A stretch of DNA of 48,095 bases from a virus, in the IMG/VR virus record IMGVR_UViG_3300015371_000063, positions 1-48,095 of that record; one strand, written 5' to 3'. Made by a program: the position numbers and the translations under genes. Below, piece by piece: positions 8,176 to 34,623 of this stretch. Position 1 is the stretch's first letter. Each line of letters begins with the position of its first letter. The notes beneath the pieces were generated by a model. It made no database searches. It worked only from the letters and a program-made list of their open reading frames with translations, and was not told the origin of the DNA.

Positions 8176-9993
8176 CTATGCCGCCTTTTCCTGAAACCGT
8201 TGCGCCAACGCATCGTCGACCCGCTCGACCACGCTCGGCCAATCCAGCACCGTCGGTTGGCGGAAAATTCGCACGCTGTCATACCAGGGCGTTCGCTCGC
8301 CCTTGAGGCCCCATCGCCAATCGCAATCGAACGATATGAGCAACCACGTTTCCTTGCCGAGCGCGCCGGCCAGATGCCCGACCGAGGTGTCGACCGTGAT
8401 CACCAGGTCGAGCGAGGCGATGCAGGCCGCCGTGTCGGCGTAGCCGTCGAATTGGTTGACATGCGCGAGAGAAAAGAACCCGCCGTGCCGCGCCGTCAGC
8501 GGGCGAAACAGTTCGTGGTTGAGGTCGCGCGTGTAGGCCCGTTCCGAAAGGGGCGAGCCCTGCCAGCAAAACCCGATCTTGGGCAGATCGCGATCGCGCC
8601 AATTGTCGACCATCTTTTGATCGGCGCGCATGTACGGCTTGCAACGAATGTCGTCGTCGGTTGCGACGCCGAGCGCCCACGGCAACGACGGCAACGAGCA
8701 ATGCTTGGTGTAACGCGGCAGCGTGCGGCCGATGCGACACAGCCGGCCCGGCGGCACCAAGCCGGAAAGCTCGAAAAGCTCGTATTGATTCGCCGGCACC
8801 TCGACGAACGCGTTCGGCGCGCGGGCAAACGCTTGCGGTATGAAGCGGCCGAACATGATCGAGTCGCCAAAGCCTTGCTCGGCCCATAGCAACAGCGGCT
8901 CGTCGGTTTGCTCACCGGCCCATTTCACGCCGTCGTGCGGCCGATCGCCGAACGGCCGCGTGTTGGGTTGCAGATAGCGCGTCTCGTAGGCCGCCCATCC
9001 GGTGCGCCAATTGCCTTGCTGCAATTCGTAGAGCCCGCGAATCATGATCGACGGCAGATGCCCGCTATCCTTCGCAATGTTTTCGTCGAGCAACGCGCGG
9101 GCGCGCTCGGTGTCCTGCATCAGGTTGCAGAGGTGGGCGAGCAACGACCGCGACCATAGGTCGTCAGGCTCGCGCTCGACGATCTTTTCGTAGCGGACAA
9201 TCTCGCGCTGATAAATCTGCGGATCGAACCTCAGATCGGCGACCGGCTCCATGCCGGAAACGGCGATGCCGCTTTCGTTGTGCGCGCCGAGCATGTTGAG
9301 CGACACCACCTCGCCGAACACGTTCTTTTTGTGCCCGGCGAAATTTTGCGGATTCCAAAGCATCGGCCGGTGCCAATACAGCCGGTAGCCGAGGTCGGTG
9401 ATGGCGGCGATCAGCGCCCGGCTTTTGTCCTCGCGGTCGTTTTCGACATAGAGGATCGGCTGAAACCGCTCGATGGTTTGCCGCGCGCCCTCGATCACCT
9501 CAAGCTCGTGGCCCTCGGCGTCGATCTTGAGCATGGTGAGCCGATCGAGCTTGAGCCCGTCGATAGGCTGACAGGTCACGTCGAGCGAGCCACCACCGAC
9601 CTCGACCGCGCCGAAATTGCGATGGCCAAGCTCATCCAGCTTCGGAATTTTCATCAAGCTGTAATGATTGCTCGCCGCCGCCTCGATCACCTCGACCACG
9701 CCAGCAAGATCGTTGGCCGCGACGTTGGCACGCAACAACGCGGCGTTGAGCGGTTGCGGCTCGAACGCGATCAACTTGCCGCCCGGCGCGATCATCTGCG
9801 CCATCGGGATCGTCAGGCTGCCGATGTTGGCCCCGACCTCGACGACGACATTGCCGGGACACAGCATCTTGCGCATGGCGAGCAATTCGCACTCGCCATA
9901 TTCGCCATAGAGCAACAGCGAGCGCCCGACATAGGCGTCATCGGGAAAGAACGAAAACCGGCCGTGTCGGCAGGGCTTGGTGACCGATTGCAT
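8176..9993 (-). CDS. FkbM methyltransferase - TPR - glycosyltransferase fusion
   Basis: A 605-residue three-part enzyme. Residues 1-230 are an FkbM-type SAM methyltransferase: VEVGANIG at 51-58 binds SAM, followed by AFEPQPLN and the family motif KIDAEGHE at 156-163. Residues about 270-345 look like tetratricopeptide repeats (LARLCNLMQD/AKDSGHLPSIMIRGLYELQQ type helices). The C-terminal part (about 360-605) carries VDTSVGHLAGALGKETWLL at 534, the nucleotide-sugar-binding signature of TPR-linked GT9-like glycosyltransferases. It should add and O-methylate a sugar. The target is probably a virion protein encoded next to it (inference). Such a fusion between structural genes is unusual. Confidence 0.85.
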   Translation of the reverse strand: MQSVTKPCRHGRFSFFPDDAYVGRSLLLYGEYGECELLAMRKMLCPGNVVVEVGANIGSLTIPMAQMIAPGGKLIAFEPQPLNAALLRANVAANDLAGVVEVIEAAASNHYSLMKIPKLDELGHRNFGAVEVGGGSLDVTCQPIDGLKLDRLTMLKIDAEGHELEVIEGARQTIERFQPILYVENDREDKSRALIAAITDLGYRLYWHRPMLWNPQNFAGHKKNVFGEVVSLNMLGAHNESGIAVSGMEPVADLRFDPQIYQREIVRYEKIVEREPDDLWSRSLLAHLCNLMQDTERARALLDENIAKDSGHLPSIMIRGLYELQQGNWRTGWAAYETRYLQPNTRPFGDRPHDGVKWAGEQTDEPLLLWAEQGFGDSIMFGRFIPQAFARAPNAFVEVPANQYELFELSGLVPPGRLCRIGRTLPRYTKHCSLPSLPWALGVATDDDIRCKPYMRADQKMVDNWRDRDLPKIGFCWQGSPLSERAYTRDLNHELFRPLTARHGGFFSLAHVNQFDGYADTAACIASLDLVITVDTSVGHLAGALGKETWLLISFDCDWRWGLKGERTPWYDSVRIFRQPTVLDWPSVVERVDDALAQRFQEKAA

Positions 9994-20528: not shown

Positions 20529-22007
20529 TCAAAAAAGCTTCGGTTCCGGGTCGGCGTCGGGGTGTAGCCGGGCGACATAAATGCAGGCGTTCCGCTTTGA
20601 CGGTTTTTGCGCGATCGGGCCTTGCCCGGTTTTGACCTCGCCCGACTTGAGCATGGCGTGCATGGCGTCGCGGAACATTCGCATTCGGACGCGGTAGCTC
20701 GAATGCAGCGGTGTTGCTTCGGGAAGCTTGGCGAACACGCTCGGGGCAAAGTTCCGCGCGGTGGTGGCCGGCGAAACCGGAATGTCGTTGTTGTTGTGGA
20801 ATTCGAGCAATTGCTTGAAAACGCCGTTGGTCGCGCGGTCGGCGGTGGCGCGATCGTAGCTTGTGGCCGGCATGATCTGGCCGGGCGCGAGCGCCAAGAG
20901 GCCGTCTTTCCACGACAATTGCAATTTGTCGCCGTGCGCCGAGTAATTCGCTTTCATGGTTTCCAGCACGCGCACGTCGGCCTCGGCCTCGCCTTCCTCG
21001 GGCCGGTAGAGGTAGAGCCGCGAGCGCACCGAATTATTCCAAGCCGTCGAGCCGCTTTGGCCGTCGCCCTCGCGCATTCCGGCGCGGCTCGGATGGGAAA
21101 GCAAGAGCGCCGCGCAATCGACGCGGACGGCGAGCCCGCGCAACAGGTTGACGCATTGCCGGGCCTGACTTCGATCGCGTTCCTCGACCACGAACATATC
21201 GGCGGCGGTATCGAAACCGATCCACACCGGCTTGATCCGCTCGGCCTCGCGCGCCACCGCCTCGAACAGCGCGGTCGGCTTGATCAATCCGCTTGGCGTG
21301 GTGATCGCCAGCGCCGACTCCTCGCCGACCAGCGTCACGATATGCAGATCGGCAAGCTCGTCGAAGCCTGCGCCGTAATGCGAGGCGATCCGGTCGAGCC
21401 GGAAATGGATTTCGGCGGCGTCGTCCTCGGCCGAGACGAGCATCACCGGGCCGGGCGTCGGCATCATGCCGAGCCAATCGCGGCCGAGCACGGTGGCGAC
21501 CGCCAATTGCTGCGCGAGCAAGGTTTTGCCGACGCCACCGTCGCCCGACAACAACGTGACATTGGCCATCGGCACGAGGTTTTGCACGACCCATCGCCGG
21601 GCCGGTGCCGGCCGAACGAGGTGCACGATGTCGAGGTAGCGCAATTGCCGCGCTGGCGGCGCGTCGGTCGGCGGCGCGTCGGTCGGCGGCGCGTCGGGCG
21701 GGGCGAGCGGGAAATCGTCGACCGACCCGTTGGTGCGCGGCGCATCCAAGGCGTCGATGATGGTGCGCTCGACCACCTCGAGCCCACCGAGCGAATTGAC
21801 GAGGTCGTGCCGCTCGGCCCGCTCGATGAGTTCGTCAATGATCAGCGTTCGATCGGCCCCGTTCCTGACGAAATCCGCGCCCTCGGTGATGCAATTGCGG
21901 AACACTTGCGGGCGCATATCCGGCGCGGCGAGCGCAATCATGCGTGACCATAAGCTGACGCCGTCGGCGAACCGGCCAAGCTCGGCCATGCCTTCAAGAT
22001 CGGCCAT
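20529..22007 (-). CDS. RepA-like AAA ATPase / replicative helicase
   Basis: A 492-residue protein. Residues about 120-400 are an AAA_25/RepA-type RecA fold: Walker A GDGGVGKT at 155-162, then PGPVMLVSAEDDAAEIHFRL, and later ERIKPVWIGFDTAADMFVVE, CAALLLSHPSRAGMREGDGQ and GSTAWNNSVRSRLYL. These match hexameric helicases of the RSF1010 RepA family used by many phages. The N-terminal 100 residues resemble the DnaB N-terminal helical domain. Before the ATPase is a short PPTDAPPTDAPP repeat. The C-terminal part may bind a partner. It is probably the phage's replication helicase/initiator. Confidence 0.85.
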   Translation of the reverse strand: MADLEGMAELGRFADGVSLWSRMIALAAPDMRPQVFRNCITEGADFVRNGADRTLIIDELIERAERHDLVNSLGGLEVVERTIIDALDAPRTNGSVDDFPLAPPDAPPTDAPPTDAPPARQLRYLDIVHLVRPAPARRWVVQNLVPMANVTLLSGDGGVGKTLLAQQLAVATVLGRDWLGMMPTPGPVMLVSAEDDAAEIHFRLDRIASHYGAGFDELADLHIVTLVGEESALAITTPSGLIKPTALFEAVAREAERIKPVWIGFDTAADMFVVEERDRSQARQCVNLLRGLAVRVDCAALLLSHPSRAGMREGDGQSGSTAWNNSVRSRLYLYRPEEGEAEADVRVLETMKANYSAHGDKLQLSWKDGLLALAPGQIMPATSYDRATADRATNGVFKQLLEFHNNNDIPVSPATTARNFAPSVFAKLPEATPLHSSYRVRMRMFRDAMHAMLKSGEVKTGQGPIAQKPSKRNACIYVARLHPDADPEPKLF

Positions 22008-26605: not shown

Positions 26606-27547
26606 ATGTCGACGGTCGAGCGTATCAATCTCTCCCAATTGACCCGCGAGCAACAAAACGAATTGGCGCGCGGCTATGTGACCGGCACCGGCATTTCGGC
26701 AACGCCGCTGGTGAACTGCAACCGCTTCAAAACGCCCTTACGATTTTACCACGAGTTCATCGGCGACCTCGATTTGCCGCCGCAAAAAGAAACCGGCGCG
26801 ATGATCCGGGGCCGCTTTTTCGAGCCGGCGGTCGGCGTCGCGCTGGTCGAGGCGCGGCCCGACTTACGGATTGAAAAGGCTAACGTTTTCCTCTGCGACA
26901 AGGCACGCCGGTTCGGCGGTCGGCCGGATTATTTCCTGCACGGCGACAAGCGCGGCATCGGCATCGGCGAGTTCAAGACCGCAAAGCCGTCGGTCTGGCA
27001 GCGGCTTTATGGCGAGCCCGGCGTGGCGCCGCTCGACGTGGTGGCGCAGACGCTTTGGTATGCAATGCTGGCCGAGGCGGCTTATGGCCTGATCGCCGCG
27101 CTCAATTGCGATCCTGATGCCCCCGCGCTCGCGATTGTCGAGGTGCCGCGCCATCCGGCGGCCGAGGCGAGGCTGATTAGGGCCGCCGAGGATTTCCTTG
27201 AGCACGTCGACAAGCGGCGCGAGCCGTCGGCCACCTATGGCCCCGACCGCGAATTGCTTAACGCGATTTATCCACGCGAGCAAAAGGGCGCGTCGATCGA
27301 CCTTGGCCACGACAACGAATTGATAGCGGCGCTGCACGAGCGCGCCGAATTGAAAGACCGGATCAAGCGGGCCGAGACGCGCTGCGACGAAATCGAAACG
27401 CTCGTCAAAGACAAGATGCGCGAGGCTTCGCGCATCGACGGCCTCGATGAGTTCAAGGTCACTTGGAAACTCGAGCATCGCAACGAATACACCGTCGCGG
27501 CTCGCGACACGCGCGTTCTGCGGATTCTCGATCGTCGCGACGCATAA
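26606..27547 (+). CDS. YqaJ-type (lambda-exo-like) recombination exonuclease
   Basis: A 313-residue PD-(D/E)XK exonuclease. GAMIRGRFFEPAV gives the early Glu, GGRPDYFLHG the catalytic Asp, and GIGEFKTAK the E-x-K pair. The stretch VVAQTLWYAMLAEAAYGLIA is the Q/Y-containing helix that follows. The C-terminal part is a coiled coil (RAELKDRIKRAETRCDEIET). It digests DNA ends to give single strands for the RecT-like protein encoded next, forming a two-component recombination system. Early plus-strand operon, first gene. Confidence 0.88.
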   Translation: MSTVERINLSQLTREQQNELARGYVTGTGISATPLVNCNRFKTPLRFYHEFIGDLDLPPQKETGAMIRGRFFEPAVGVALVEARPDLRIEKANVFLCDKARRFGGRPDYFLHGDKRGIGIGEFKTAKPSVWQRLYGEPGVAPLDVVAQTLWYAMLAEAAYGLIAALNCDPDAPALAIVEVPRHPAAEARLIRAAEDFLEHVDKRREPSATYGPDRELLNAIYPREQKGASIDLGHDNELIAALHERAELKDRIKRAETRCDEIETLVKDKMREASRIDGLDEFKVTWKLEHRNEYTVAARDTRVLRILDRRDA

Positions 27548-27563
27548 AGGGAAAGGGATCAAA

Positions 27564-28592
27564 ATGAACGACGCGCCGAACCCGCATCCGCTCACCGTCA
27601 TTTCGAAACAACTCGATGACCGCACCGTGACCTATGCCAAGTCGTTGCCGGCGCATTATCCGGTCGAGCGTTTCAAGCGCGACATTATTTCGGCGCTCGC
27701 CAGCAATCCCGACTTGGTCACTTGTGACCGGGCAAGCCTTTTCAATTCGGTGAACCGCATGGCCGGCATTGGCTTGCGGGTCGACGGCCGCCAAGCCGCG
27801 CTCGTGCCGTTCCGTGATCGCGATCGCGGCATGATCGCGGTGCCGATGATCATGGTGGCGGGCTGGCTCACTTTGTTCCGCAACAGCGGGCAATTCAAGC
27901 AAGTCGCGGTCGAGGTCGTGCGCATCGGCGACGAATTCGATTATTTCATCGACAACGACGGGCCGCACGTCGTTCACCGCCCCGCCGGCAGCGACAAGCC
28001 ATTGAGCAAGGCTTATGCGCTCGCCATTACCAAGGACGGCGGCGTTTTCATTGAGGTGATGACGGCGGCGCAAATCGAGAAGCGCCGCAACGTGAGCCGC
28101 GCCAAGGATGGACCGATGTGGCGCGGTTGGTATGACGAGGCGGCCAAAAAGACCGTGTTGCGTTCATTGCTCAAGCTCGTGCCGTTGTCGTCCGACGATC
28201 TCGATCGGCTCGACCGCGTCGACGACGACGAGACGACATTCGAATCCGCGCCTTTGCCGCCCGAGCCGACCGAGCCGCGCAAAAAGTTAAGCGTTGCGTC
28301 GGCATTGGACAAGCTCGGCGGCGAAGCTCCGGGCGACGTGGTCGACGTTGAGGCGTCACCTACACCCCCGACGGAAACGTCGGCCGCGTCCCCGGAGTCC
28401 GATTCCAAGGAACCAGCACCGGATTTGCTCTCCGATCACGTTCGCCGGCGCGCGACTATGCTCGCCGCGGCGCAAGAGCGCGGCAAACAGGCTCGGGTCG
28501 AGGGTTTGCACAAGCGCGCGCTGCCGCCGGAATACCGCGAGGCCGGGCGCGAGGCCGAGGCCGAGGCGTGGCGCAAGGGATGGGACTCGTAA
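27564..28592 (+). CDS. recT: RecT-family single-strand annealing protein
   Basis: A 342-residue protein of the RecT/Bet type: ALASNPDLVTCDRASLFNSV, AGIGLRVDGRQAALVPFRDR, PMIMVAGWLTLFRNSGQFK and KKTVLRSLLKLVPLS match the conserved central fold. The C-terminal third is acidic and Pro/Ser-rich, then helical and Arg/Ala/Glu-rich, probably for oligomer or SSB contacts. The ATG at 27564 has AAAGGGATCAAA before it and lies 16 bp after the exonuclease stop. An upstream extension would overlap that gene. Confidence 0.9.
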   Translation: MNDAPNPHPLTVISKQLDDRTVTYAKSLPAHYPVERFKRDIISALASNPDLVTCDRASLFNSVNRMAGIGLRVDGRQAALVPFRDRDRGMIAVPMIMVAGWLTLFRNSGQFKQVAVEVVRIGDEFDYFIDNDGPHVVHRPAGSDKPLSKAYALAITKDGGVFIEVMTAAQIEKRRNVSRAKDGPMWRGWYDEAAKKTVLRSLLKLVPLSSDDLDRLDRVDDDETTFESAPLPPEPTEPRKKLSVASALDKLGGEAPGDVVDVEASPTPPTETSAASPESDSKEPAPDLLSDHVRRRATMLAAAQERGKQARVEGLHKRALPPEYREAGREAEAEAWRKGWDS

Positions 28593-31563: not shown

Positions 31564-32313
31564 GTGAGGCGTATCATCCTATTTGCCGTTGCGGTGGCCG
31601 CGATCGTCGGCGCACCGGCGGCGCGGGCCGACGTGGTCCTCGGCGGTCTGAATTGGACCTTTAGCGGTGCCGATAATCTGAGCTTGCAGGCGGTCGTGCC
31701 GTCTGGAAACCAACCGCAAAACATTCAATGCGTCATCTGCGGCGATAATCAGCCGCAGCAAAGCCCGACGTTCGGCTATACGAACTTTCAAAACCAGGGC
31801 AATGCCAACACGTTGACCTATTTTTCGACCAACGTGTCAGGCGGCGGCAACCCTGGTTTCGACACGCTCGGCATCCCCTATGACGGCTCGTTCCTGCGCA
31901 GTTTCTTGATTGCCTCGGGTGATCCGTCGCTGACGTTTTCGATCGGCATCGACGTGAACGACAACAACACCGCGCAAACGCTTAACAGTTTCTTTCTGTT
32001 GAACGTCACGACGCATACCGTGTTGTCGGCATTCACGACGCCGACGGCGTTGCCGAACGTCAACAACGGCACCGGGTTTCCTGATTTCACCCTGACGGGG
32101 TTCAACATCAATGTCGGGTCGGACATTCATGCTGGCGATCAATTGGCGTTCTTTGCGCGGATCACCAACGCAAGCGACGGCCCCGATAGCTTCTTTCTGA
32201 TTCCCGCAGCGGTGCCCGGCCCGATCGTCGGCGCCGGCCTGCCCGGTCTGATCGTGGCGTGCTTTGCCATGATCGGCCTTGCATGGCGGCGGCGGCGCGC
32301 GGCCACCGTCTAG
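31564..32313 (+). CDS. Secreted protein with PEP-CTERM-like C-terminal sorting signal (1)
   Basis: A 249-residue protein, GTG start. Residues 1-22 are a signal peptide (ILFAVAVAAIVGAPAARA). The body is Asn/Thr/Phe-rich beta sequence (LNWTFSGADNLSLQAVVPSG, NTAQTLNSFFLLNVTTHT). The end is AAVPGPIVGAGLPGL, a hydrophobic helix and RRRR: the motif-TM-basic layout of exosortase/PEP-CTERM substrates in the variant seen in Hyphomicrobiales. Such proteins go to the cell surface or matrix. In a phage this suggests altering the lysogen's surface. The matching gene at 32382-33077 lies opposite. Confidence 0.75.
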   Translation: MRRIILFAVAVAAIVGAPAARADVVLGGLNWTFSGADNLSLQAVVPSGNQPQNIQCVICGDNQPQQSPTFGYTNFQNQGNANTLTYFSTNVSGGGNPGFDTLGIPYDGSFLRSFLIASGDPSLTFSIGIDVNDNNTAQTLNSFFLLNVTTHTVLSAFTTPTALPNVNNGTGFPDFTLTGFNINVGSDIHAGDQLAFFARITNASDGPDSFFLIPAAVPGPIVGAGLPGLIVACFAMIGLAWRRRRAATV

Positions 32314-32326
32314 ATGCCTAAAACAA

Positions 32327-32357
32327 AACGGGCGGCCCTTGTTCGGGGCCGCCCGTT
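32327..32357. terminator. Bidirectional terminator between convergent PEP-CTERM-like genes
   Basis: AACGGGCGGCCC (32327-32338) pairs perfectly with GGGCCGCCCGTT (32346-32357) around 7 bases. An A-rich run precedes and a T-rich run (TTTCCTTTT) follows, so it can stop transcription from both sides. The flanking genes converge on it. Confidence 0.9.
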
Positions 32358-32381
32358 TCCTTTTGTGCTGTCGGCGGGGTG

Positions 32382-33077
32382 CTAGCGCCGTGCCGGCTGC
32401 ATACCGCGCCGCCGGGCAAGCCACCATCCGGCCAGCAACGCGACAAGCCCCGGCAGGCCCGCGCCGATGACCGGGCCGGGCACCGAAAGGTTCGGCCCGG
32501 TGATGCCATCGACGATGATCTCGAACGTCGTCGGATAGAAAAAGCCGTTGAGGCCGTGAAACAAGAATCCGCCGCCGAGGCCGAACGGCGCCGACAGGTT
32601 GTCGGTGATCGGGTCAACCGTGTAGCTGAACGAGGTCAGCCCCGGAAACGTGATGTGCGTCGGCGTGGTGGTCACGTAGGTGTTCATCGACAGACCATCG
32701 GCGAGGCCGCCGAGGTTCACCGTAACGCCCGCATAAATCTGATGGGGATCGACAAAGATCAGGTCGCTCAGCCCGTGGCCATAGCTGATGCTGGCGCCGT
32801 TGATCGTCAGCGTGCCGGCTTGCAACACCGCGTTGTTGAACGTCCAACTGACGTGAAAGGCGTCGCCGCTCAACGTGTGCCCGGCCTGACCGAACACGCC
32901 GGTGGTGTCGACCAGCGGCACCGCCTGCCAGCCGAACGTCTCGACGAACGTATAGCCGGCGATCGTGCCGTCGACGTTGACGACGGTGTCGGCTCGAGCC
33001 GCCGAGGTCGTCGCCAGCAAGGCCGCCGCAAATATCAAAGCTCGCTTCATGGTTGATGCTCCCGTTGTTGTTTTCAT
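32382..33077 (-). CDS. Secreted protein with PEP-CTERM-like C-terminal sorting signal (2)
   Basis: A 231-residue protein. The signal peptide runs to ...TTSAARA, with the body TVVNVDGTIAGYTFVETFGW and further Gly/Thr-rich beta strands. The C-terminus has SVPGPVIGAGLPGLVALLAG then ARRR, the same motif-TM-basic layout as the protein at 31564-32313. The two bodies are not obviously alike. The ATG at 33077 overlaps the upstream stop (ATGA). An internal ATG at 33050 has a fine ribosome site (GGGAG) and a cleaner signal peptide. It is the last gene of the integrase operon. Confidence 0.75.
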   Translation of the reverse strand: MKTTTGASTMKRALIFAAALLATTSAARADTVVNVDGTIAGYTFVETFGWQAVPLVDTTGVFGQAGHTLSGDAFHVSWTFNNAVLQAGTLTINGASISYGHGLSDLIFVDPHQIYAGVTVNLGGLADGLSMNTYVTTTPTHITFPGLTSFSYTVDPITDNLSAPFGLGGGFLFHGLNGFFYPTTFEIIVDGITGPNLSVPGPVIGAGLPGLVALLAGWWLARRRGMQPARR

Positions 33078-33274
33078 TGTCGTCCTTCCAATTCTTTATG
33101 GATAGCCCGCCAAGCCGCCACGCCCTCGGCGCATTCCTTGGCGGTGTTGTATTTCAACCGCACGCATTCGTCGGGCGACACGCCCACTTGTTGCAAAACG
33201 CTCGGCGACTCGCGGCGCACCACAACGAACAACAGCACGACGGCGAGGCCGACGATTAACAGGAACGCTTTCAT
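33074..33274 (-). CDS. Small membrane-anchored protein
   Basis: A 66-residue protein with an N-terminal membrane helix (KAFLLIVGLAVVLLFVVV) and a short soluble tail with two Cys (DECVRLKYNTAKECAEG). Both ends overlap neighbours by ATGA, linking the integrase and the second PEP-CTERM-like gene in one operon. Function unknown. Confidence 0.7.
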   Translation of the reverse strand: MKAFLLIVGLAVVLLFVVVRRESPSVLQQVGVSPDECVRLKYNTAKECAEGVAAWRAIHKELEGRQ

Positions 33275-34623
33275 CGCGCCACCGCCTTCATCGGAACCAC
33301 CTTGCCGGTGCGCTTGCGCATCGGCCCGGCGTCGAGCGTCGCGGCGCGCATTTTGCGCCGCGTTTCGCCAAGGATTTGCTTGGCGTAATGGTCGTTGATG
33401 ATCTTTGCCGAGGTGTCATAGGTCTTGGCGATCGACAGAAGGTCGACGTTGTTGGCGGCGACTTGCGCGGTGATAGCGGTGTGTCGCAGGGAATACATGG
33501 TCGGGCCGTAGCGGCCGACCTCGCGGCCCTTGGTGCGGCCCTCGACGCGCTTGGCGAAACCGAGCGCGACCATGATCTTGCGAAACCCGTTGATGTGATC
33601 GTCGTCGCCGGCCGACCAGCGATGGCCCTTCGGGTTGAGCAACAGCGGCTCGTTGCGCGCCCGGCCGGCGATCGACGCGCGCAGGCGGCGGGCAAAGTCG
33701 AGCGGCAGCGAAACCGGCGTGCGCACCCGTTCCTTTTTCTTGCCCTTGCGCGACGCCATGACGTTGAGGAACGGGTCGGTCGGATCGTCGTCCTCGAAAT
33801 GCTCGACGTTAAGCTCGGCAAGCTGCGACGGCCGCACGCCGAGCGCGTTGGCCTCGACCCAAAGCCCGAACCGCTCGCCCTGATCATAGGCCGCCTGGAT
33901 GATGGCGACCGCCTCGCGTTGCTTGAACGGCTTGCGGTTGACGCTCGCGGTGTGCGGCAAATCGGTGAGGCCGTAGCGCCACGCGTTGCCATTGGTGATG
34001 CGCTTGTGATCCTTGCGGGCCGCGAGGTTGAGCGCGGCCTTTAATCCGCGCATGACGCGGTTGACCGCAGCACCGGTGACGCCGCGATGGGAGCGCACCC
34101 AATCGCGCCACCGCCGCCAATCGTCCTCGGTGGTGTCCTGCACCGGCTTGGACAACAGATTGATGCGGGTCGCGTCGCGATAGGCGGCGAGGTGGTTGGC
34201 CGGTTGCGTGGCGTTCCAGATCGCGCCGCCCCGGCTCAACAGGTCGCCCTTGTATTGGTAGAGCGCCTCGACCACCGTGATCGGTTCGAAGCCTGCGAGC
34301 TTGGTCGCGTCGCCGCCGTGTTTGGCGTAATCGCGGGCGCGGGCGAACGCCTGCGAATAGCTCAACACCGTTTCGCCGTTGGCCTGCGCGTAATCGTCGG
34401 CGATGGCGAGCCGCTTGCGCGTATTGGTGCCGTCGCCGTTTGACCAGCGGACATGCCACATGCCGGCTTTGTTTTTCTTGCGCGATGGTTGGTAGCCGAC
34501 GGCGAGGCCGACCGAGACGTTGACGAAATGCGGCTTGCCGAGCTTGCGCATGTCGACTCGCGCCCTGCGCGATGCGAGGTCGACCGATTTCCCGAACTCA
34601 AGCTTGAGCGGTGTGTCGGACAT
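33271..34623 (-). CDS. int: Tyrosine-family integrase
   Basis: A 450-residue tyrosine recombinase, somewhat longer than lambda Int. Core-binding region about 110-205 (ALYQYKGDLLSRGG, RGLKAALNLAARKDHKRIT). Catalytic domain: Arg264 in LGVRPSQLAELNVEHF, the LRHTAIT box with Arg380/His381 preceded by RYGPTMYS, and the nucleophile Tyr413 in INDHYAK. The family integrates phage DNA at an attachment site, so this phage is temperate. The N-terminal part (about 30-70) includes an Arm-type DUF4102-like start. I could not locate attP; it is probably within about 500 bp. Confidence 0.92.
   Translation of the reverse strand: MSDTPLKLEFGKSVDLASRRARVDMRKLGKPHFVNVSVGLAVGYQPSRKKNKAGMWHVRWSNGDGTNTRKRLAIADDYAQANGETVLSYSQAFARARDYAKHGGDATKLAGFEPITVVEALYQYKGDLLSRGGAIWNATQPANHLAAYRDATRINLLSKPVQDTTEDDWRRWRDWVRSHRGVTGAAVNRVMRGLKAALNLAARKDHKRITNGNAWRYGLTDLPHTASVNRKPFKQREAVAIIQAAYDQGERFGLWVEANALGVRPSQLAELNVEHFEDDDPTDPFLNVMASRKGKKKERVRTPVSLPLDFARRLRASIAGRARNEPLLLNPKGHRWSAGDDDHINGFRKIMVALGFAKRVEGRTKGREVGRYGPTMYSLRHTAITAQVAANNVDLLSIAKTYDTSAKIINDHYAKQILGETRRKMRAATLDAGPMRKRTGKVVPMKAVAR

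Follow-up and report, generated by a model that had tools for sequence, protein, structure and literature searches.

Prophages of Gram-positive bacteria encode LPXTG surface proteins, phage gene products that are addressed to the host's sortase. The two phage proteins described here, P0001 and P0002, would share this principle, but differ from LPXTG proteins in both envelope type and enzyme; no homology is claimed. Both genes lie in a 48,095-base IMG/VR virus record of a soil phage, referred to below as the window.

The architecture of P0001 and P0002 has its counterpart in the PEP-CTERM/exosortase system (EpsH; TIGR02595, PF07589, PF09721). Haft 2006 (PMC1569441) describes PEP-CTERM proteins as having a motif, a helix, and a basic cluster in that order and a low content of basic residues. 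The shared traits are (i) a signal peptide, (ii) a single C-terminal motif-helix-basic cluster, (iii) few basic residues in the body, and (iv) unrelated bodies that bear one tail (PMC1569441). Unlike PEP-CTERM proteins, the window proteins are phage-encoded, carry the motif VPGPxxGAGxPG instead of Pro-Glu-Pro, and match no model above its cut-off. Because neither motif nor model agrees, P0001 is described as a protein that would work like a PEP-CTERM protein and is not called one. Close relatives of P0001 that share its body end in tails of the VPLPA-CTERM (TIGR03370) and PEPxxWA-CTERM (NF035944) types. The window tails form a different subtype, for which the libraries searched contain no matching model.

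TIGR03118 proteins, which have exosortase-interaction domains, are reported from hot-spring viruses (PMC11003980), and viral carriage of such tails is therefore not wholly new. The TIGR03118 proteins belong to a family different from P0001, and the reporting passage is silent on tail exchange and on a late-operon location (PMC11003980).

The convergent gene pair in the window

The window encodes portal, head, terminase, recE/recT, integrase, endolysin, and tail genes. P0001 (31564–32313, + strand) and P0002 (32382–33077, − strand) are convergent and placed between the recE/recT side and the integrase. P0001 is a 249-residue protein that starts at a GTG codon with GGAGG 7 nt upstream. It consists of a signal peptide, an all-beta body with a CxxC pair (Cys56/Cys59), and a C-terminal sorting-type tail (32212–32310, +) comprising the VPGPIVGAGLPG motif, a membrane helix, which spans residues 225–248 in the structure model, and an RRRR cluster. 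P0002 is 231 residues long from its first ATG and 222 from an internal ATG at 33050, the latter giving the cleaner signal peptide. Its tail (32385–32483, −) is of the same type, with the VPGPVIGAGLPG motif, a membrane helix, and arginines. The signal peptides of both proteins were judged by inspection.

The bodies of P0001 and P0002 are unrelated, while their tails are nearly alike (VPGPxxGAGLPG, membrane helix, arginines). BLASTP aligns the two proteins in the tail only (VPGPIVGAGLPGLIVACFAMIGLAWRRRR with VPGPVIGAGLPGLVALLAGWWLARRR, 18 of 28 positions identical), and a search of the window with a degenerate DNA pattern for VPGPxxGAGLPG finds exactly two sites, as against none in 100 shuffles. 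Basic residues are nearly absent from the bodies, with 2 in 195 residues for P0001 and 0 in 170 for P0002. The description of the pair in the first-pass annotation, as two exported-type proteins with a signal peptide, this tail motif, a helix, and arginines, is confirmed by these results. Against the PEP-CTERM-type models (TIGR02595, PF07589), neither protein scores above cut-off, P0001 does not match VPLPA-CTERM (TIGR03370), and P0002 reaches 13.3 bits against GVDTG_CTERM, whose cut-off is 29.

No relatives of the P0002 body were detected by tblastn in phages or plasmids. Scans with a peptide pattern (17 stretches of viral contigs) and with body motifs (35 stretches, compared by phmmer) each returned no related sequence, and a single-sequence fold of P0002 has a mean pLDDT of 36, with the tail helix as the only confident part. 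The case for P0002 as a putatively sorted protein is carried entirely by its tail sequence.

The two genes are separated by a terminator-like stem-loop (32326–32358) with a perfect 14-bp stem, a 5-nt loop, and a folding energy of −33.6 kcal/mol (z −3.07). The earlier description as a perfect bidirectional terminator fits the stem but not its T tracts, which are short, and a terminator scan calls the + strand only. On the far side of P0002 lies a tyrosine integrase (33271–34623, −; phrog_1, 4.7e-16). P0002 follows the integrase on the same strand, separated from it by a 66-residue ORF (33074–33274, −) that has an N-terminal hydrophobic stretch, returned no family match, and ends in a stop codon overlapping the first ATG of P0002, in keeping with the earlier placement of P0002 in the integrase operon. 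The promoter of its own that had been claimed for P0001 finds no support, as the 4.5 kb scanned hold one sigma-70-like site versus 1.0 expected, and this site is not at P0001. RecE-like and RecT-like genes (26606–28592, +) precede P0001 in the same orientation, a layout shared with locus L004, the sister of the window on the body tree (support 85). P0001 stands outside the head operon of the window.

Two further features of the window may be recorded. A 605-residue ORF among the tail genes (8176–9993, −) has a methyltransferase domain (phrog_8156, 2.7e-22) and a long remainder without assignment. A tRNA-Val (cac) is predicted at 21247–21334 (−) inside a primase/helicase-like ORF (20529–22007, −) and could be a chance call.

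The P0001 family and its exchanged tails

P0001 belongs to a large and apparently undescribed phage family. In viral contigs, a scan with the single sequence gave 17 relatives among 22 candidate stretches, and a profile scan gave relatives in 253 of 276 stretches, the best 80 of which were retained. The first 13 relatives aligned are 57–68% (10 sequences) or 44–47% (three sequences) identical to P0001. At E ≤ 1e-30 the family set holds 109 ORFs, which came to 75 unique members after four without a start codon at the expected place were removed and identical copies were merged. Thinned to 68 and joined by the window protein, these make up a 69-row alignment in which P0001 is 39–68% identical to the other rows and 20 columns are invariant. 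The first 13 relatives show the blocks NQPQNIQCxICG, NNGTGFPD, and NDGPDSFF, and the P0001 body contains the conserved CxxCG, NNGTGFPD, and NDGPDSFF blocks that define the family. A search of phage and plasmid records with P0001 returned no matches, and bacterial genomes yielded just three weak relatives of the body among 39 candidate stretches, at 30–34% identity, with VPLPA-type tails and neighbours that look chromosomal by eye. No description of the family, its size, or its tail exchange was found in searches of open-licence PMC papers on exosortase/PEP-CTERM and phages.

The AlphaFold2 model of P0001 (pLDDT 87.5, pTM 0.79) has a mostly-beta body and a C-terminal helix, and the body is probably a beta-sandwich. 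The best Foldseek match of the body in the PDB is weak (E 0.042), the best VIA Z is 7.7 (rmsd 3.2, 118 residues aligned) to the C-terminal part of 8pxu, and lectins, CBMs, and jelly rolls score a Z of about 5. The fold searches gave no significant match in the PDB or BFVD and none to virion proteins, and the family profile gave none among PDB sequences. These weak similarities to beta-sandwich, lectin, and jelly-roll folds suggest a fold class, from which no function follows.

Within the family, the body is held constant while the tail varies. The tail is of the GxGxP type in 64 of the 75 unique members, VPLPA-like in seven, PEP-like in three, and of another kind in one; the tree script classed its 69 rows as 59 (GxGxP), 6, and 4. 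With sorting-tail models from NCBIfam and Pfam (E ≤ 0.1), 7 of 69 members match VPLPA-CTERM (best 1.5e-6), 3 of 69 PEPxxWA-CTERM (best 5.9e-10), and 4 of 69 PF07589 PEP-CTERM (best 1.6e-7). On a tree of the 69 bodies, from which tail and signal peptide were excluded, the VPGP-GxGxP, VPLPA-CTERM, and PEP-CTERM classes require at least seven changes, a figure that is approximate because the tree was built quickly and leaves 26 of its 66 inner branches open. At least four changes of the GxGxP label are forced by strongly supported branches. The minimum possible is two, and shuffled labels give a mean of 9.8; tails are thus inherited for a while and swapped repeatedly. Such repeated change favours reading the tail as a genuine sorting signal that can be exchanged, and its assignment as a sorting-type signal is well supported.

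Tails of the same type also occur outside the family. Tailed proteins are present in 95 viral stretches and are common in soil viral contigs. The 136 unique ORFs with such a tail fall into 19 body clusters, numbers that depend on the loci fetched, which were picked by the P0001 family and the tail motif. By a crude rule, 131 of the 136 look signal-peptided, and their bodies have a median of 3 K+R per 150 residues versus 14–19 in TerL, MCP, and portal. The earlier suggestion that such a pair is new to phages is weakened, since tailed proteins are widespread and recur in tandem; the convergent layout was not seen elsewhere.

Tandem pairs or triples of tailed proteins lie in other soil viral contigs (L041:9602–11130, L073:6064–8247, L074:8478–9849, and L061:906–3979), and some of these proteins carry a block ITDFEHYRIDV before the tail. 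In three further loci (L002:9941–10699, L016:459–1232, and L152:5668–6411), a nearly identical signal peptide, MKRLTLAALLLAGTALATLPA, is joined to clearly diverged bodies. Their tails are nearly identical too, reading VPAPAIGAGIPG or VPGPIAGAGIPG and then GVIAACLGLFGLHRRRRN, as if both ends recombined independently of the middle.

Probable host dependence of the tail and proposed function

An exosortase gene is absent from the window record, as the first-pass annotation had stated, and a PF09721 search of 48 whole viral records that carry the gene or the tail found none. Processing of the tail would therefore need the host. On the bacterial side, such tails would be expected in Bradyrhizobium-like bacteria; the exact tail pattern was found in 0 of 398 genomes and a slightly wider pattern in 0 of 297; a looser pattern hit 2 of 398, both outside any tail context. 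The sampled bacterial genomes are inferred from DUF1489 to be Alphaproteobacteria. In one bacterial family the tail pattern occurs in 2 of 149 genomes, G781 and G844, and the match in G781 is not a tail. G844 encodes two full-length exported proteins with tails of the form VPGPIAGAGLPG..GWWRRR and two partial ones. The phage tailed proteins of L061, L077, and L107 are 38–53% identical to these VPGPIAGAGLPG proteins, so genes of this kind are shared between phages and a bacterium of this group.

The enzyme that would read the tail is less straightforward. The proposal that the phage relies on the exosortase of its host holds for a dependence on something in the host. As for the exosortase itself, a PF09721 exosortase is present in all three bacterial genomes whose distant P0001 relatives end in VPLPA-type tails, whereas G844, with its VPGPIAGAGLPG tails, has no PF09721 match in an assembly of many small contigs, and PF09721 may not cover every exosortase. 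PF09721 was found in 1 of 39 genomes of the G844 family, a genome other than G844. The lack of a match in G844 is the main evidence against a host exosortase simply doing the work. In 22 large genomes of the Alphaproteobacteria-like kind, neither an exosortase (0 of 22) nor the tail was found, which is consistent with the reading and goes no further. A consensus tail query against plasmids returned nothing, which is weak evidence as the query is short and of low complexity, and relatives of the window portal in phages are too distant for naming a host.

The reading we lean towards, somewhat more probable than otherwise, is that P0001 and P0002 are exported phage proteins with sorting of the PEP-CTERM kind, which decorate the envelope of the infected cell and change adsorption. 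The host Sec machinery would export them, and the C-terminal helix would hold them in the inner membrane. The variant VPGPxxGAGxPG signal would then address them to a host sorting enzyme, which would set them free or pass them on to the cell surface or exopolysaccharide. The P0001 family would keep its body and exchange its tail to fit the sorting system of the host. Decoration of the envelope could alter who adsorbs; re-adsorption of progeny or superinfection, for instance, might be limited in this way. Surface display with an effect on adsorption or superinfection is a best guess, prompted by a body that is putatively exported and possibly lectin-like, the frequent late location of the gene, and the near-restriction of the family to phages.

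An alternative that we consider unlikely, though it fares best among the rivals, is that the tail is a membrane anchor and nothing else. The proteins would remain on the periplasmic side of the inner membrane, with a role in, for example, lysis or the entry of a second phage's DNA, and no sorting enzyme would be involved. Phages that lack an exosortase and a bacterium with VPGP tails and no detected exosortase would both fit this arrangement, as would a small membrane protein that follows many of the genes. This protein (about 65–85 residues, two hydrophobic segments) is encoded on the same strand near 20 of the 75 P0001-family genes, downstream in all but L001 and L150, and has no family match above cut-off. 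Of 94 other tailed loci, 20 have it as well, but some of these loci represent the same contig a second time. Among P0001-family members it accompanies GxGxP tails only (20 of 64 versus 0 of 11; Fisher p 0.03, kinship ignored), and its model finds none in the window. However, a plain anchor would not need a Pro/Gly motif kept across 19 body clusters, nor would its repeated replacement by tails that match VPLPA- and PEP-CTERM models be expected.

A more doubtful version of the sorting hypothesis makes VPGPxxGAGxPG a separate, virus-enriched sorting class that canonical EpsH does not read. Another host enzyme and, in many phages, the two-helix neighbour would then form a display cassette re-coating the infected cell, and the tail would be swapped for VPLPA or PEP types when a lineage moves to exosortase hosts. 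As a separate observation, the two-helix protein family is found beside tailed surface proteins in 40 loci, including ones with unrelated tailed bodies (e.g., L008:10648–10905, L016:1466–1687, and L054:1208–1438).

Gene position in relatives and lysogeny

In 15 of the 75 P0001-family loci, a TerL gene lies directly upstream on the same strand, with gene centres 0.9–1.6 kb apart, and in 14 of 75 a major head protein gene lies 1.1–3.0 kb downstream, also on the same strand. These counts omit L144 and L151, where the terminase is on the other side, and the remaining loci are not negative, since many of the 75 are cut by contig ends and the gene models are few and partly built from the same loci. 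RecE/RecT genes precede the family gene in the same orientation at three of the 75 loci (L004, L151, and L172) and in the window. An integrase is recognised by phrog_1 in 6 of 29 carrier records, the window included; PF00589 also finds 6, but misses the window's own. It follows that the gene is not bound to lysogeny, and its position is often that of a late gene.

These positions bear on lysogenic conversion, in which both genes would be morons expressed from the prophage to the benefit of the lysogen, for example in biofilm formation or adhesion. The window itself suggests such a role, with P0002 behind the integrase on its strand and P0001 facing it, and the distant relatives of P0001 are bacterial chromosomal genes. 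Yet a place between terminase and head genes is frequent among the relatives, few of the carriers have an integrase, and P0001 has no promoter beyond chance, all of which makes this role rather improbable. The earlier expectation that both proteins are made in the lysogen is weakened accordingly by the operon context and integrase counts of the relatives. Least probable is that P0001 is a virion or assembly protein, as its place between TerL and head genes would allow, given its signal peptide and sorting tail, the few phages that carry the gene behind recE/recT instead (the window and L004), and the lack of any significant fold match to virion proteins.

Should envelope decoration by sorted proteins prove correct, phages would be exploiting a bacterial sorting system for proteins on which work has dealt almost exclusively with the bacteria's own biofilm and exopolysaccharide proteins. 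A conserved body with exchangeable host-type tails would then be a natural experiment in which tail type predicts the sorting enzyme of the host, and P0001-family proteins would be ready-made substrates with which to identify the enzyme that reads the VPGP variant. The family itself extends the proteins of soil phages by a large unnamed group, which may act in adsorption or superinfection.

A second small protein is also found near P0001-family genes. It is predicted to be secreted and carries a GKxIGTATxSxxxxYxR block (e.g., L004:10748–11122 and L119:10806–11141). In 10 loci it is encoded some 585 bases downstream of the family gene.
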